The notes under the pieces were generated by a model. The model ran no database searches. It was not told the origin of the DNA and was given only the letters and a program-made list of their open reading frames with translations. From a virus, in the IMG/VR virus record IMGVR_UViG_3300031977_002164, positions 1 to 35,725 of that record: DNA of 35,725 bases. The stretch is one strand, 5' to 3'. Below, one piece after another: positions 1,850 to 35,725 of the stretch (position 1 is its first letter; every line of letters begins with the position of its first letter). The translations under genes and the position numbers were made by a program.

Positions 1850-2113
1850 ATGGAAGTGTTAGCTGGAATTTTTTTTCTTGCGATTGCGGTGACATGCATT
1901 AGTGTTATTTTTTTTTGGTTTTTTACTAATAATCCTCGTTTAGTAGAAGCGCCAGGCGTGACGCTGAATGTTATGTTTCTTTTATCTATGACGTTATTTT
2001 TAATAACAATGTATCGCCGTTTAGTAGAAGCGCCAGGCGTGACGCTGAATGTTATGTTTCTTTTATTTATGACGTTATTTTTAATAACAATGTTTGGAGG
2101 GGGTGATTTATGA
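1850..2113 (+). CDS. Membrane protein with internal tandem duplication, 87 aa
   Basis: Three predicted membrane helices. The first is residues 2-25 (FFLAIAVTCISVIFFWFF). The next two come from a near-exact duplication of 27 codons: RLVEAPGVTLNVMFLL then a short hydrophobic run ending LFLITM, twice. The start follows GGGGGTGATTT; almost the same string precedes the next gene. The stop TGA overlaps the next ATG. Unknown function. One copy may be dispensable, since the unit looks recently duplicated. Confidence 0.55.
   Translation: MEVLAGIFFLAIAVTCISVIFFWFFTNNPRLVEAPGVTLNVMFLLSMTLFLITMYRRLVEAPGVTLNVMFLLFMTLFLITMFGGGDL
1937..2093 (+). repeat. 76-bp direct tandem repeat inside the membrane protein gene
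   Basis: Bases 1937-2012 recur at 2018-2093 with a period of 81 bases, a whole number of codons. I see one mismatch (C at 1986 against T in the second copy). The near identity suggests a recent event or a collapsed/expanded assembly. Confidence 0.9.
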
Positions 2114-31759: not shown

Positions 31760-32117
31760 TCTCGATCTCCATATAATGTCTGTTAACTGCAATCCCGATA
31801 AAATCATATATCAGGTCTCTCTGCTGCATTGCTATCACATCTGATTTTACCCATTGATAGCAAATACTCTCAACCTCTGCCATATCGTCAAGACTGGGGT
31901 CTATCAGCTCGTACATGTTCCAGCCGAATTTCTCCAGCTCATATCTGAACTTTTGAACTCCTCCCCCCGGCAAAGCCAGGGAGAAAAAGCCAAACACTTT
32001 TAAAGAATTTGGAAGCTTGTTATTAAGATGTACTACACCGCTATCATCCTCATAGACTGGTCTAGACATATCACAAAACCAAGCCGGCACATTATCGCTA
32101 CATGTTAATCTGATCAT
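31695..32117 (-). CDS. Hypothetical protein, 140 aa
   Basis: Unrecognised globular protein: MIRLTCSDNVPAWFCDMSRP at the start, a LPGGGVQKFRYELEKFGWNM segment and a helical part (DDMAEVESICYQWVKSDVIA). GAGGATATACAGCA precedes the ATG, which overlaps the preceding stop (ATGA). The last 65 bases are shared with the next gene in another frame. Confidence 0.65.
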   Translation of the reverse strand: MIRLTCSDNVPAWFCDMSRPVYEDDSGVVHLNNKLPNSLKVFGFFSLALPGGGVQKFRYELEKFGWNMYELIDPSLDDMAEVESICYQWVKSDVIAMQQRDLIYDFIGIAVNRHYMEIENGTDNTLQPTNLSTELSNITY

Positions 32118-32269
32118 TGCTGTATATCCTCAATAGTATCAGTGACAAATTCCCAAACGTCTTTTACTACATCCCAAACATCTAATGATAGTGGCATTGG
32201 ATGGATAAGTTGAGCAATAAAGAATCCCAAACCAACTAAACCGAACTTGTTCCAATCTGCTTTACTCAT
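32114..32269 (-). CDS. Small protein with one hydrophobic helix, 51 aa
   Basis: Starts MSKADWNKFGLVGLGFFIAQ, a probable membrane helix at residues 9-24, and continues with an acidic amphipathic helix (LDVWDVVKDVWEFVTDTIED). AAGGAGATTAAAGC upstream is an excellent ribosome site. Its ATG overlaps the TGA of the -1 frame extension, its TGA overlaps the next ATG. Confidence 0.65.
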   Translation of the reverse strand: MSKADWNKFGLVGLGFFIAQLIHPMPLSLDVWDVVKDVWEFVTDTIEDIQQ

Positions 32270-32619
32270 GCTTTAATCTCCTTAGGAAATGCGCATTTAT
32301 TGGTCCGGTAGTATCTGTTTGAATTGGTCCGGGCTAGATAACCGTCTGAGACCAATTCTTGATAAACATCTAAGACCAGTTCCTTTCCGACAGAAAACCG
32401 TTTAGCTACGTAACTAGACCCAACTCTTTCGCCCTCATTTACTACATAATCCCAGATTTCTTGTGCAATATCTCGATCGGTCCCGGTCCGTCGATTGGTC
32501 GTATTTGCCGTAAATAGAACCGTTTTTTGGTCTGGACCGTTTTTTTCCTCCTGTTTTACCTCTTTCAGACCGTTTTCATCCTCATCTAGACCATATTCGG
32601 GATCTAGACCTGGACCATC
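32266..32619 (-). CDS. -1 frame extension encoding a winged-helix-like domain, 117 codons, likely made by frameshifting
   Basis: Open for 117 codons from the end of A AAA AAG (32625-32619) to a TGA overlapping the next gene's ATG. It has no in-frame ATG, GTG or TTG for more than 80 codons and TGA TAA stops just upstream, so it cannot be started normally. The N-terminal 45 residues are an acidic linker (LDEDENGLKEVKQEEKN). Residues 48-106 read as a winged helix: DRDIAQEIWDYVVNEGERVG, SYVAKRFSVGKELVLDVYQE, LVSDGYLARTNSNRYY, similar in pattern to the DNA-binding gamma domain of FtsK. It would be joined to the membrane protein at 32619-33377, giving 370 aa. Confidence 0.65.
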   Translation of the reverse strand, partial: DGPGLDPEYGLDEDENGLKEVKQEEKNGPDQKTVLFTANTTNRRTGTDRDIAQEIWDYVVNEGERVGSSYVAKRFSVGKELVLDVYQELVSDGYLARTNSNRYYRTNKCAFPKEIKA

Positions 32620-32641
32620 TTTTTTACATTATCAGACCTTT
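32584..32641 (-). promoter_or_regulatory. Predicted dnaX-like -1 frameshift signal
   Basis: Read on the minus strand: SD-like AAAGG (32641-32637), 11 bases, then the heptamer A AAA AAG (32625-32619) in the correct phase (zero-frame codons GTA AAA AAG). After a 9-base spacer comes a 9-bp stem (32609-32601 with 32592-32584, core TCTAGA/TCTAGA, two G-U pairs, 8-base loop). All three parts match the Escherichia coli dnaX arrangement in order and approximate spacing. The zero-frame stop TAG (32606-32604) lies in the stem. Confidence 0.6.
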
Positions 32642-33377
32642 CTTGATCGTTTGCAGCTTCAGACCGTTTAGCCTGAGCGGCTGGAGATGTACCCAAAACA
32701 TGTGCCATCACAGCAGTAAGCAAGAGAGGGGTTATCACCATTGCGATACCGAAAGCCAATCTCGCTAAGGTCTTGAACATGTCTTGATCAATCCAAGCAG
32801 GCATGAAGGGGTCCATCTTTTCAAACACTACTTGGTTAGCCGGGGTGGAGGAGTCGAGCTTTGAGATCTCGTATATTAAATCATCCCTTTTTTCGATAGC
32901 GTCGTTTAGAGTGCGCTGGAACTTTGATCGGTGATTAATCGTGTTAGCAACGTTACGCTGCCATGTTTCAACATTGTCGTTTGCTTGTGCGAGGGCCATC
33001 TCTAACTGCTGACGTTTAAAAGCATCTCCCGTACTAGCCTTCTGCGCGTCTAAAGCGATGATACAGCTAAGACACGCGAAGAGCGACAAGGCTATAAGGT
33101 ACGTAAACCAGACACTAGCAGCAAACTTCATGATGCCTCGTACCGCACCCGCGAAGATAGCCATTGCTAGGACCAGGGCGGCCACATCCAGAAAAGAGTA
33201 GGCCAGTGGCATGATGTACCATGTATTGTCTGATGGGCTAGCTGATAGCCTTCCCAATCGCATGTTAAAATATATACTACAAACTGTTAGGATTAACATT
33301 GCTGAAAAACCAAACAGCATTTTGTGATTATTGAACTTCTCGAACCAATCGCTCGCTAATTGCTCTGCTTTACTCAT
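32604..33377 (-). CDS. Four-helix membrane protein with coiled coil, 257 aa (zero-frame product)
   Basis: Predicted helices at about residues 19-38, 53-80, 86-110 and 206-229, with a long coiled coil between the third and fourth (about 115-180, QQLEMALAQANDNVETWQRN). Even helix number puts both ends in the cytoplasm. The last codons are V-K-K-M-V-Q-V after the slippery heptamer, so most ribosomes would end here and a fraction would shift to add the winged-helix tail. Start follows GAGAGGGTC. Function unknown. Confidence 0.75.
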   Translation of the reverse strand: MSKAEQLASDWFEKFNNHKMLFGFSAMLILTVCSIYFNMRLGRLSASPSDNTWYIMPLAYSFLDVAALVLAMAIFAGAVRGIMKFAASVWFTYLIALSLFACLSCIIALDAQKASTGDAFKRQQLEMALAQANDNVETWQRNVANTINHRSKFQRTLNDAIEKRDDLIYEISKLDSSTPANQVVFEKMDPFMPAWIDQDMFKTLARLAFGIAMVITPLLLTAVMAHVLGTSPAAQAKRSEAANDQERSDNVKKMVQV

Positions 33378-33414
33378 TTTTGACCCTCTCTCAATTTATA
33401 CATATAGTTAAGTA

Positions 33415-33443
33415 GCGGGGTTTATCCATGGCCCCGCGTTTTT
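33415..33443 (+). terminator. Rightward intrinsic terminator inside the leftward operon
   Basis: GCGGGG (33415-33420) pairs with CCCCGC (33432-33437) followed by GTTTTT on the + strand. On the minus strand no T-run follows, so it points rightward, against the genes around it. Confidence 0.55.
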
Positions 33444-33480
33444 GCCCTAGGCCCTCTCTCTGACCTTCCAAACCTAGGGC
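33444..33480. repeat. Inverted repeat GCCCTAGG / CCTAGGGC
   Basis: GCCCTAGG (33444-33451) and CCTAGGGC (33473-33480), 8-bp perfect arms around a 21-base loop, lying between the two rightward terminators. Could form a third hairpin in either strand's RNA, or serve as a protein site. No T-run. Confidence 0.55.
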
Positions 33481-33484
33481 GTTT

Positions 33485-33508
33485 GGCCCCATCTTAGGGG
33501 CCTTTTTT
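33485..33508 (+). terminator. Second rightward intrinsic terminator
   Basis: GGCCCC (33485-33490), loop ATCTTA, GGGGCC (33497-33502), then TTTTTT (33503-33508). A textbook intrinsic terminator for + strand transcription. It overlaps the stop of the leftward 80-aa gene at 33507. Confidence 0.7.
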
Positions 33509-34218: not shown

Positions 34219-34401
34219 CTATTTACCGTCACCTGAACCGTAGCCGTAACCGTAACCGTCACCGTCACCTGAACCGTAACCGGAACCGCAACCGTAACCG
34301 GAACCGTCACCTGAACCGTCACCCCAACCGTAACCGGAACCGTAACCGTAACCGTTTATATCATCAGAAAATCTATACTCACCGTTCTCTATTTTAATCA
34401 T
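34219..34401 (-). CDS. Gly/Tyr-rich repeat protein, 60 aa
   Basis: After a unique N-terminus (MIKIENGEYRFSDDINGY) the rest is a run of Gly-X dipeptides with X Tyr, Ser, Asp, Trp or Cys, from a 6-base DNA repeat (consensus GGTTAC and variants, 34223-34349). No membrane segment. The ATG overlaps the preceding TGA (ATGA), so it is an expressed operon member. Such low-complexity chains may phase-separate or bind by Tyr stacking; function unknown. Confidence 0.65.
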   Translation of the reverse strand: MIKIENGEYRFSDDINGYGYGSGYGWGDGSGDGSGYGCGSGYGSGDGDGYGYGYGSGDGK

Positions 34402-34801: not shown

Positions 34802-35191
34802 TTAAAAGGGCACATCTTGTTCAAATGATTGTTGTTGCGGCGCAGGCTGCTGCTTTTTATCACCTCCAAGCATTTGCATATCCCTAGCTTTAATGTGTGT
34901 TGTGTAACGATCTTGACCGTTCTTGTCTTGCCATTTATTTGTCTCTAAGCTGCCATCGATGTAGACTTTGGCACCTTTTGACAAGTATCTCTCTGCAATC
35001 TCTGCCAACTTTCCGAACATCACAATCTTATGCCATTCTGTCTTTTCTACCTTTTGACCTGATTTTTTATCTAGCCATGATTCAGATGTTGCTAAAGATA
35101 GGTTGGCTATAATTCCTCCGTTTTGTGTTTGTCTAAATTCTGGATCTTTTCCCAATGTTCCAAGTAAAATTACGCGATTTACACCTTTCAT
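34802..35191 (-). CDS. ssb: Single-stranded DNA-binding protein, 129 aa
   Basis: OB-fold [23 protein letters not shown] opening, [40 protein letters not shown], and [18 protein letters not shown]. After residue 108 a Gln/Pro-rich linker leads to the tail EQDVPF, the partner-binding end seen in bacterial SSBs (usually DDIPF). Overlaps the Sak gene stop; probably loads or exchanges with Sak and NinB. Confidence 0.93.
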
Positions 35192-35725
35192 TATTTAACC
35201 TCCGGTAATTGTTTAAGTTGTAGTAATTCCTCTTTTGTCAGTCCCTTTGCAATCAATCCTTTTTCATGCTCTTTAATTTCGTCTCTTAGCTCTACAAGCC
35301 CAGTAAAATCCTGATTTTCAATAGCCTCCTTTATCCCAGTAATGTATTTGTTTATATGTTTGTGCGCATCAGATATCAGCTTATCGATTATCTGTTTATT
35401 CTTAGTTATCTGACCTTTCTCAAAAGAGTTGTATAAATCATTTTGTTTTTGCTCTGATAGCTTTGACCAAAATGCTAAAAACCCTGTTGCATCGGATTTA
35501 ACAATCAGCCTGTCCATCATCTCTTTCTCGCCGTCAGTGTAGGAGCGGGGTACGCTGATACTTCCAGCCTCCGGTAAATCCTCTCCAGCATATATGTAGT
35601 GACCCAATCCAAACATGGCCAAACACTTTGTCAAACACCTCATGCGAGTATCGCTGATTGCTCGTGAATCAGGATTCTGTATCGCTTTGTTGCGATGATC
35701 CATAACCGGTAACCACATCTCATGC
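35191..35725 (-). CDS. Sak-type (DUF1071) recombinase, C-terminal part, cut by the window edge
   Basis: Continuation of the gene at 1-205. The frame is open to the window end and reads [20 protein letters not shown], then [20 protein letters not shown] and YIYAGEDLP, the conserved core and end of the DUF1071 domain. The remaining 120 residues are a charged helical C-terminal region. Joining base 35725 to base 1 directly puts the halves out of phase by one, so a few bases (3n+1) are probably absent at the joint. Confidence 0.85.

Follow-up and report, generated by a model that had tools for sequence, protein, structure and literature searches.

Known phage frameshifts mainly concern virion and assembly proteins (PMC5009743). 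The gene dnaX is expressed as two products by a route that differs between species. In a survey of motifs in Escherichia coli, A_AAA_AAG was among the most shift-prone and efficient heptamers. Our criteria for stimulators follow the same source: a Shine-Dalgarno (SD) sequence of the experimentally proven set, to which GGAG belongs, 6 to 17 nt before the motif, and a hairpin or pseudoknot, normally 5 to 8 nt after it (PMC4066793). Here, we analyzed a 35,725-nucleotide stretch of DNA from a small tailed phage (IMG/VR record IMGVR_UViG_3300031977_002164, positions 1 to 35,725; referred to below as the window). One of its early genes (33377-32266, minus strand) probably gives rise to two proteins via a -1 frameshift and may have a DNA-binding role at the membrane. 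Judged from its sequence, the locus adds a new candidate to the cases of programmed -1 frameshifting, and our search of open-access papers found no description of a phage membrane protein that gains a winged helix by frameshifting.

The slippery heptamer and the -1 frame

The zero frame, rederived from the sequence, encodes a membrane protein of 257 aa (33377-32604, minus strand). Four codons before its stop lies the heptamer A_AAA_AAG (32625-32619, minus strand), in phase with the zero frame and followed by ATG GTC CAG GTC and then TAG (32606-32604). The -1 frame continues as an extension of 117 codons (32266..32619, minus strand), from GAT at 32619 to GCA at 32269 and a TGA at 32268-32266, and encodes an acidic linker followed by a predicted winged helix. 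This TGA overlaps the ATG of the next gene, which starts at 32269 (ATGA), encodes 51 aa (MSKADWNKFG...; 32114..32269, minus strand), and has an SD of its own, AAGGAG. Upstream of the heptamer, the -1 frame is closed by TGA 32634 and TAA 32631-32629. Together with the zero-frame TAG, these stops confine a shift to a 25-nt overlap, and the heptamer falls inside it. Within the -1 frame, 91 codons of a 120-codon open stretch pass before the first ATG, GTG, or TTG, which is TTG 32355; if standard start codons are required, the extension would be accessible solely via frameshifting. The initial annotation had read the heptamer, the 117-codon frame with its TGA overlap, the nearby upstream stops, and the lack of a start for more than 80 codons from the sequence, and all of these were recovered. 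The rederived frames also agree with its product lengths of 257 aa and 370 aa, the latter being 253 plus 117 residues.

The site stands out among comparable sequences. In-phase A_AAA_AAG occurs twice in the 10,937 codons of the phage genome, so the chance of finding one in the 25-nt overlap is ~0.001. Window genes contain 28 in-phase shift-prone heptamers, and only the one at 32625-32619 leads to a long -1 extension (117 codons; the next longest has 47). The tail frame is also the sole sense-strand frame of at least 100 codons without a start in the 35.7 kb; the remaining two such frames are antisense to other genes. Codon usage marks the tail frame as coding: its score is 0.23, compared with 0.03 and -0.05 for the other sense frames of the tail and 0.11 for the membrane part. 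Rfam gave no match.

The stimulatory elements are less uniform. An SD-like AAAGG (32641-32637, minus strand) is located 11 nt upstream of the heptamer, where the initial annotation had placed it, but it is weak: it lies outside the proven stimulatory set, and no member of that set is present there. The predicted stimulatory hairpin (32578..32615, minus strand) combines a 9-bp stem with an outer 4-bp helix. The stem was rederived at 32609-32584, includes two G-U pairs, and begins 9 nt after the heptamer, as first described and beyond the normal 5 to 8 nt; with the outer helix (32615-32612 paired to 32581-32578), the structure begins 3 nt after the heptamer. The predicted energy is -17.3 kcal/mol over 60 nt, which is unexceptional against shuffled sequences (z of -0.8 to -1.4), and the region is within the most folded 1.1% of nearby windows of the same size. 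Both arms of the hairpin are copies of a repeated motif (see below), and the stem may thus be a by-product of the repeats. The comparison with dnaX extends to the heptamer and to the predicted hairpin, but with its weak SD the window compares only partially with dnaX.

Two explanations of the broken frame do not involve the ribosome. The first, which we consider improbable, is a sequencing or assembly error: the true run would have seven A's, and the gene would be one unbroken frame of 370 aa. Runs of A are the usual site of indel errors, loss of an A from a Lys-Lys stretch would create the heptamer automatically, and an in-frame TGA occurs close to the left end of the record. We found no second record of the window phage across the A-run, and the window by itself is compatible with an A lost from a run of seven. 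However, six A's make a short run, and the window has no other sense-strand startless frame of at least 100 codons. The second explanation is that RNA polymerase slips on the A-run and changes the frame. Frames are also joined by slippage during the transcription of A-runs, for example, in dnaX of some bacteria, but we regard this here as extremely improbable: reported cases mostly need at least eight A's, compared with the six in the window, and the G after the six A's favors -1 slippage of the ribosome.

Several further features of the window were noted. A 129-nt intergenic leader 5' of the membrane gene (33378..33506, minus strand) has three strong hairpins in succession (33410-33506, between two minus-strand genes; z of -3.5). 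On the plus strand, T-runs follow two of the three (33415-33437 and 33485-33502), a sign that a plus-strand transcript may end antisense to the early operon. A 60-aa open frame at 34219-34401 (minus strand) consists almost only of Gly-Tyr-Gly-Ser/Asp repeats and is the window's most extreme local cluster of ACCG/ACCGT repeats. At 1850-2113 (plus strand), a small membrane-protein frame has a near-exact tandem duplication of ~26 residues (RLVEAPGVTLNVMFLL.MTLFLITM). The gene for a Sak-type single-strand annealing protein is split over the record ends (1-235 and 35191-35724, minus strand), which makes circular permutation of the phage probable, a few bases being absent from the record where the ends meet. 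This gene has an in-frame TGA ~35 bases from the left end, at a position where the homologue in record L089 has Gly. TGA terminates 15 of the 53 window genes, and the one in the Sak-type gene therefore looks like an end error or a mutation and not like a different genetic code.

Relatives of the gene

Used as queries against viral contigs, phages, plasmids, and genome contigs, the complete membrane protein, the tail, and the 370-aa fusion each found no relatives. A shorter query covering transmembrane (TM) segments TM2-TM3 (residues 41-125) returned three viral records (L131, L132, and L133). These have replication, structural, and lysis-region genes in common with the window phage at roughly 25-85% protein identity, which places them in the same wider phage group. 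The membrane domains are 65% identical between the window and L131, 63% between the window and L132, and 69% between L131 and L132. When 119 related viral records and about 770 genomes were searched with profiles, no further full-length members came to light; two records (L142 and L143) matched the winged-helix part weakly. Two weak genome matches were set aside, as they look like chance similarity to unrelated membrane proteins.

L131 has A_AAA_AAG in phase at 1896-1902, and its membrane ORF ends in ...YVKK SLAAA, with a TGA five codons past the heptamer. In L131, the heptamer is preceded at 11 nt by GGGAG, which includes the proven GGAG and is spaced like AAAGG in the window (spacers TCTGATAATGT and TCTCAATATGT). 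The -1 extension has 112 codons, ends as in the window with its TGA overlapping the following ATG (ATGA), and matches winged-helix families (HTH_Crp_2, 3e-5; phrog_270, replication initiation, 2e-6). In L132 and L133, in contrast, the membrane part and the tail form a single 352-aa frame without the heptamer, and the gene is identical in the two records. The in-frame C terminus of L132 is homologous to the window tail (30% identity over 92 aa; E = 1e-13; global z of 10), and a three-sequence profile locates the membrane part and the tail in neighboring frames, in the window as well as in L131. The one-frame fusion of L132 thus indicates that the membrane part and the winged helix belong to one protein. 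As for the signal proposed in the initial annotation, its heptamer recurs in L131 with an SD-like element of another sequence, and the structure after the heptamer is weak there (-8.8).

Fused relatives without a slippery site, named in the initial annotation as grounds for rejecting the frameshift, thus do exist. They agree with an unbroken gene in the window, but they occur beside L131, another phage from another data set, whose frame breaks at the same heptamer and in the same direction. This makes an isolated assembly error, or a recent mutation, in the window unlikely, and the fused genes argue for a real fusion product rather than for an artifactual site. A genuine indel mutation that separated the frames and left the tail as a decaying remnant is very improbable. 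A-runs commonly lose one base by mutation and fused relatives are at hand, but the tail retains 117 open codons, a coding signal, homology to L132, and the overlap with the operon, and L131 has the same layout with a tail that has diverged yet stayed open.

L131 also bears on the possibility of two separate proteins, in which a stand-alone winged helix would be translated from a nonstandard start coupled to the stop of the membrane gene. A GTG in L131 overlaps the zero-frame TGA, and the L131 tail could alternatively start there by coupling; the window has a CTG at 32568 with GAGGA about 10 nt upstream. However, the GTG lacks an evident SD, the window has no start of this type and no ATG, GTG, or TTG for about 90 codons, and the acidic linker of the window tail, with its Gly-Pro/Gly-Leu pattern, starts right at the heptamer, ahead of the CTG. 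With L132 encoding a fused protein and A_AAA_AAG left unexplained in both phages, we give coupled translation little credence. A programmed -1 frameshift that joins the membrane part to the tail is well supported by these comparisons. It is very probably genuine rather than the result of a sequencing slip.

The history of the site can be read in two ways. The linkers of the window and L131 do not align and differ in length, for which reason the heptamers are out of register in a MAFFT alignment of the DNA. The heptamer follows the last conserved glycine by ~24 residues in the window and by ~11 in L131. An ungapped comparison anchored on the heptamer gave 9 of 14 matches just upstream (P of ~0.004), which is supportive, although the anchor was chosen. 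With two sequences carrying the site, unaligned linkers, and these spacings, common descent and independent origin look alike. The slippery site is kept in one of the two distinct relatives, and L131 is slightly closer to L132 than to the window, so that either fusion removed the site in the L132 line or the site originated twice. The fused genes further imply that some relatives do without the short form. We read the long form as the constant and the short form as the option, as for dnaX, and the in-frame homologue in L132 offers a natural control that makes the long form only.

The tail and the repeat array in its coding DNA

The initial annotation had described the tail as a linker plus a winged helix, and structure prediction agrees. 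AlphaFold, run on the tail alone as a single sequence, gave low confidence for the linker (residues 1 to 44) and a winged helix at residues 48 to 105, with pLDDT mostly at 66-78. The predicted elements are three helices (48-62, 68-75, and 79-92) followed by a two-strand wing (95-97 and 103-105). Compared with the PDB, the model matches winged helices of many families (best Z of 8-8.6), with the GntR type common and Zalpha folds also present. We assign the tail as a winged helix with moderate confidence. We did not assign the tail to the GntR family, since Pfam PF00392 scored 14.9 bits against a cutoff of 27 (E = 0.022).

The DNA encoding the tail contains an array of 16 GGTC/GACC sites (32302..32665, minus strand), compared with about 2 expected. 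It reaches from the last part of the membrane gene across the frameshift signal into the tail, and it is one of the window's three most extreme clusters of a 4-mer. In 15 of the 16 sites, GGTC is followed by a pyrimidine, and the third base is likewise a purine in 15 of 16, compared with about half elsewhere; the array unit is therefore close to GGTCYRR. Sites occur in all three phases and begin in the zero-frame part. The tail alone has 14 sites, against a mean of 3.3 in codon-preserving shuffles, and none of 5,000 shuffles reached 14. A check for helical phasing showed that the four distal sites are exactly 24 nt apart, the rest having no phase. The array, whose repeats supply the two arms of the hairpin, was absent from the initial annotation.

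Related arrays occur in the relatives. The tail region of L132 has 9 GGTC/GACC and 7 GTCC/GGAC sites, and that of L131 has 10 GTCC/GGAC sites and a repeated AGTAC. Pooled GGTC and GTCC counts exceed the codon-preserving null in the window, L131, and L132, which points to a DNA-level array common to the group. The motif is altered in L131, the phage whose tail has diverged most. Besides GTCC/GGAC, L131:1925-2195 contains several palindrome-like units (AGTACT, AGTCCT, and AGGACT), possibly the full operator of the L131 tail. Upstream of its membrane gene, L131:15-212 is a low-complexity Ala-Leu/Ala-Met repeat frame comparable to the Gly-rich repeat frame of the window at 34219-34401.

The GntR-type regulator NagR binds GTGGTCTAGACCAC (PMC4333415), and GGTCTAGA, the core of the NagR site, is present in the window array. 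By-eye alignment, however, puts Ser and Lys in the tail at the positions of the base-contacting Arg38 and Arg48 of NagR. With these arginines apparently replaced, recognition of GGTC by the tail is not predicted directly. The tail may thus be the reader of the array, for which the support is circumstantial.

Proposed role and comparison with known systems

The 257-aa protein has four hydrophobic segments, centered near residues 28, 69, 99, and 215, and the stretch between the third and fourth is helical, probably a coiled coil. The AlphaFold model of the membrane part was poor (pLDDT of 55) and was used for helix limits only. By eye, positive charges lie at the N terminus, in the TM2-TM3 loop, and at the C terminus, and from this distribution we propose an N-in/C-in topology. 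With these three parts placed in the cytoplasm, the tail would face the DNA.

These elements suggest the following scheme, in which we infer the occurrence of frameshifting, the topology, DNA binding, the target sites, and tethering from sequence. Some ribosomes would read four codons past A_AAA_AAG and stop, producing the four-TM protein of 257 aa with both termini inside. The remaining ribosomes would slip back one base, aided by the hairpin and the weak SD-like element, and would add the cytoplasmic tail of 117 residues (acidic linker and winged helix) to give 370 aa. Both forms have the membrane part and probably coassemble; if so, the slip would set the number of DNA-binding tails per complex. 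The likeliest role would be to hold phage DNA at the membrane through the GGTC-type repeats in and just before the tail-coding DNA. The initial annotation had already proposed a tether to the membrane, carried by a putative fixed fraction of the protein. An alternative or additional role could be autoregulation by binding within the gene itself, with the same array serving. A more specific form of the tether is possible but doubtful: frameshifting would set the share of membrane subunits with a winged helix, and the winged helix would bind the ~16 short sites in its own coding DNA and anchor the genome there in a centromere- or origin-like manner. If this self-addressed tether were true, divergence or exchange of the tail, as in L131, would change the array motif alongside. 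Should the arrays be the binding sites of the tails, they would provide a compact, testable system for the placement of phage DNA at the host membrane and would show a DNA-binding domain and its sites changing together.

The closest parallels are with recoded genes. E. coli dnaX (tau/gamma) has A_AAA_AAG, an upstream SD-like element, a downstream hairpin, and an N-terminal part shared by two proteins, each with a counterpart, seen or predicted, in the window. However, the shift shortens the product of dnaX and would lengthen that of the window gene, the window SD is weak (that of L131 is good), the main stem is 9 nt away, and the proteins are unrelated. The two-ORF type of dnaX, in which recoding gives the longer product, is nearer to the layout described here. 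Setting the ratio of a membrane protein to a version with a DNA-binding tail would be a new use of dnaX-type recoding. Transposase frameshifts of the IS3/IS911 type likewise combine A_AAA_AAG with SD and stem stimulators and join functional domains, but the window has no transposase or insertion sequence features. Other phage -1 shifts (the lambda G/GT tail chaperone, the T3/T7 coat protein, and Ig-like extensions) resemble the window in giving a minority product a C-terminal extension (PMC5009743). Those cases are virion or assembly proteins, whereas here an early-region membrane protein would gain a DNA-binding domain.

Other systems resemble the predicted product rather than its expression. 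By its description, phi29 p16.7 is a functional analogue, an early phage protein that sits in the membrane and recruits the phage DNA to it (PMC4974454); unlike the window gene, it has a single product without a frameshift and acts via single-stranded DNA and the terminal protein. GntR/HutC regulators (NagR/DasR) gave the best Pfam hint for the tail and were among its best structure matches. The tail differs from them in scoring below the Pfam cutoff, in lacking a ligand domain, in the apparent loss of the arginines, and in its fusion to a membrane part. CadC and ToxR share with the predicted extended product a winged helix held at the membrane; their winged helix is N-terminal, is linked to a single TM segment, and is made without a frameshift.
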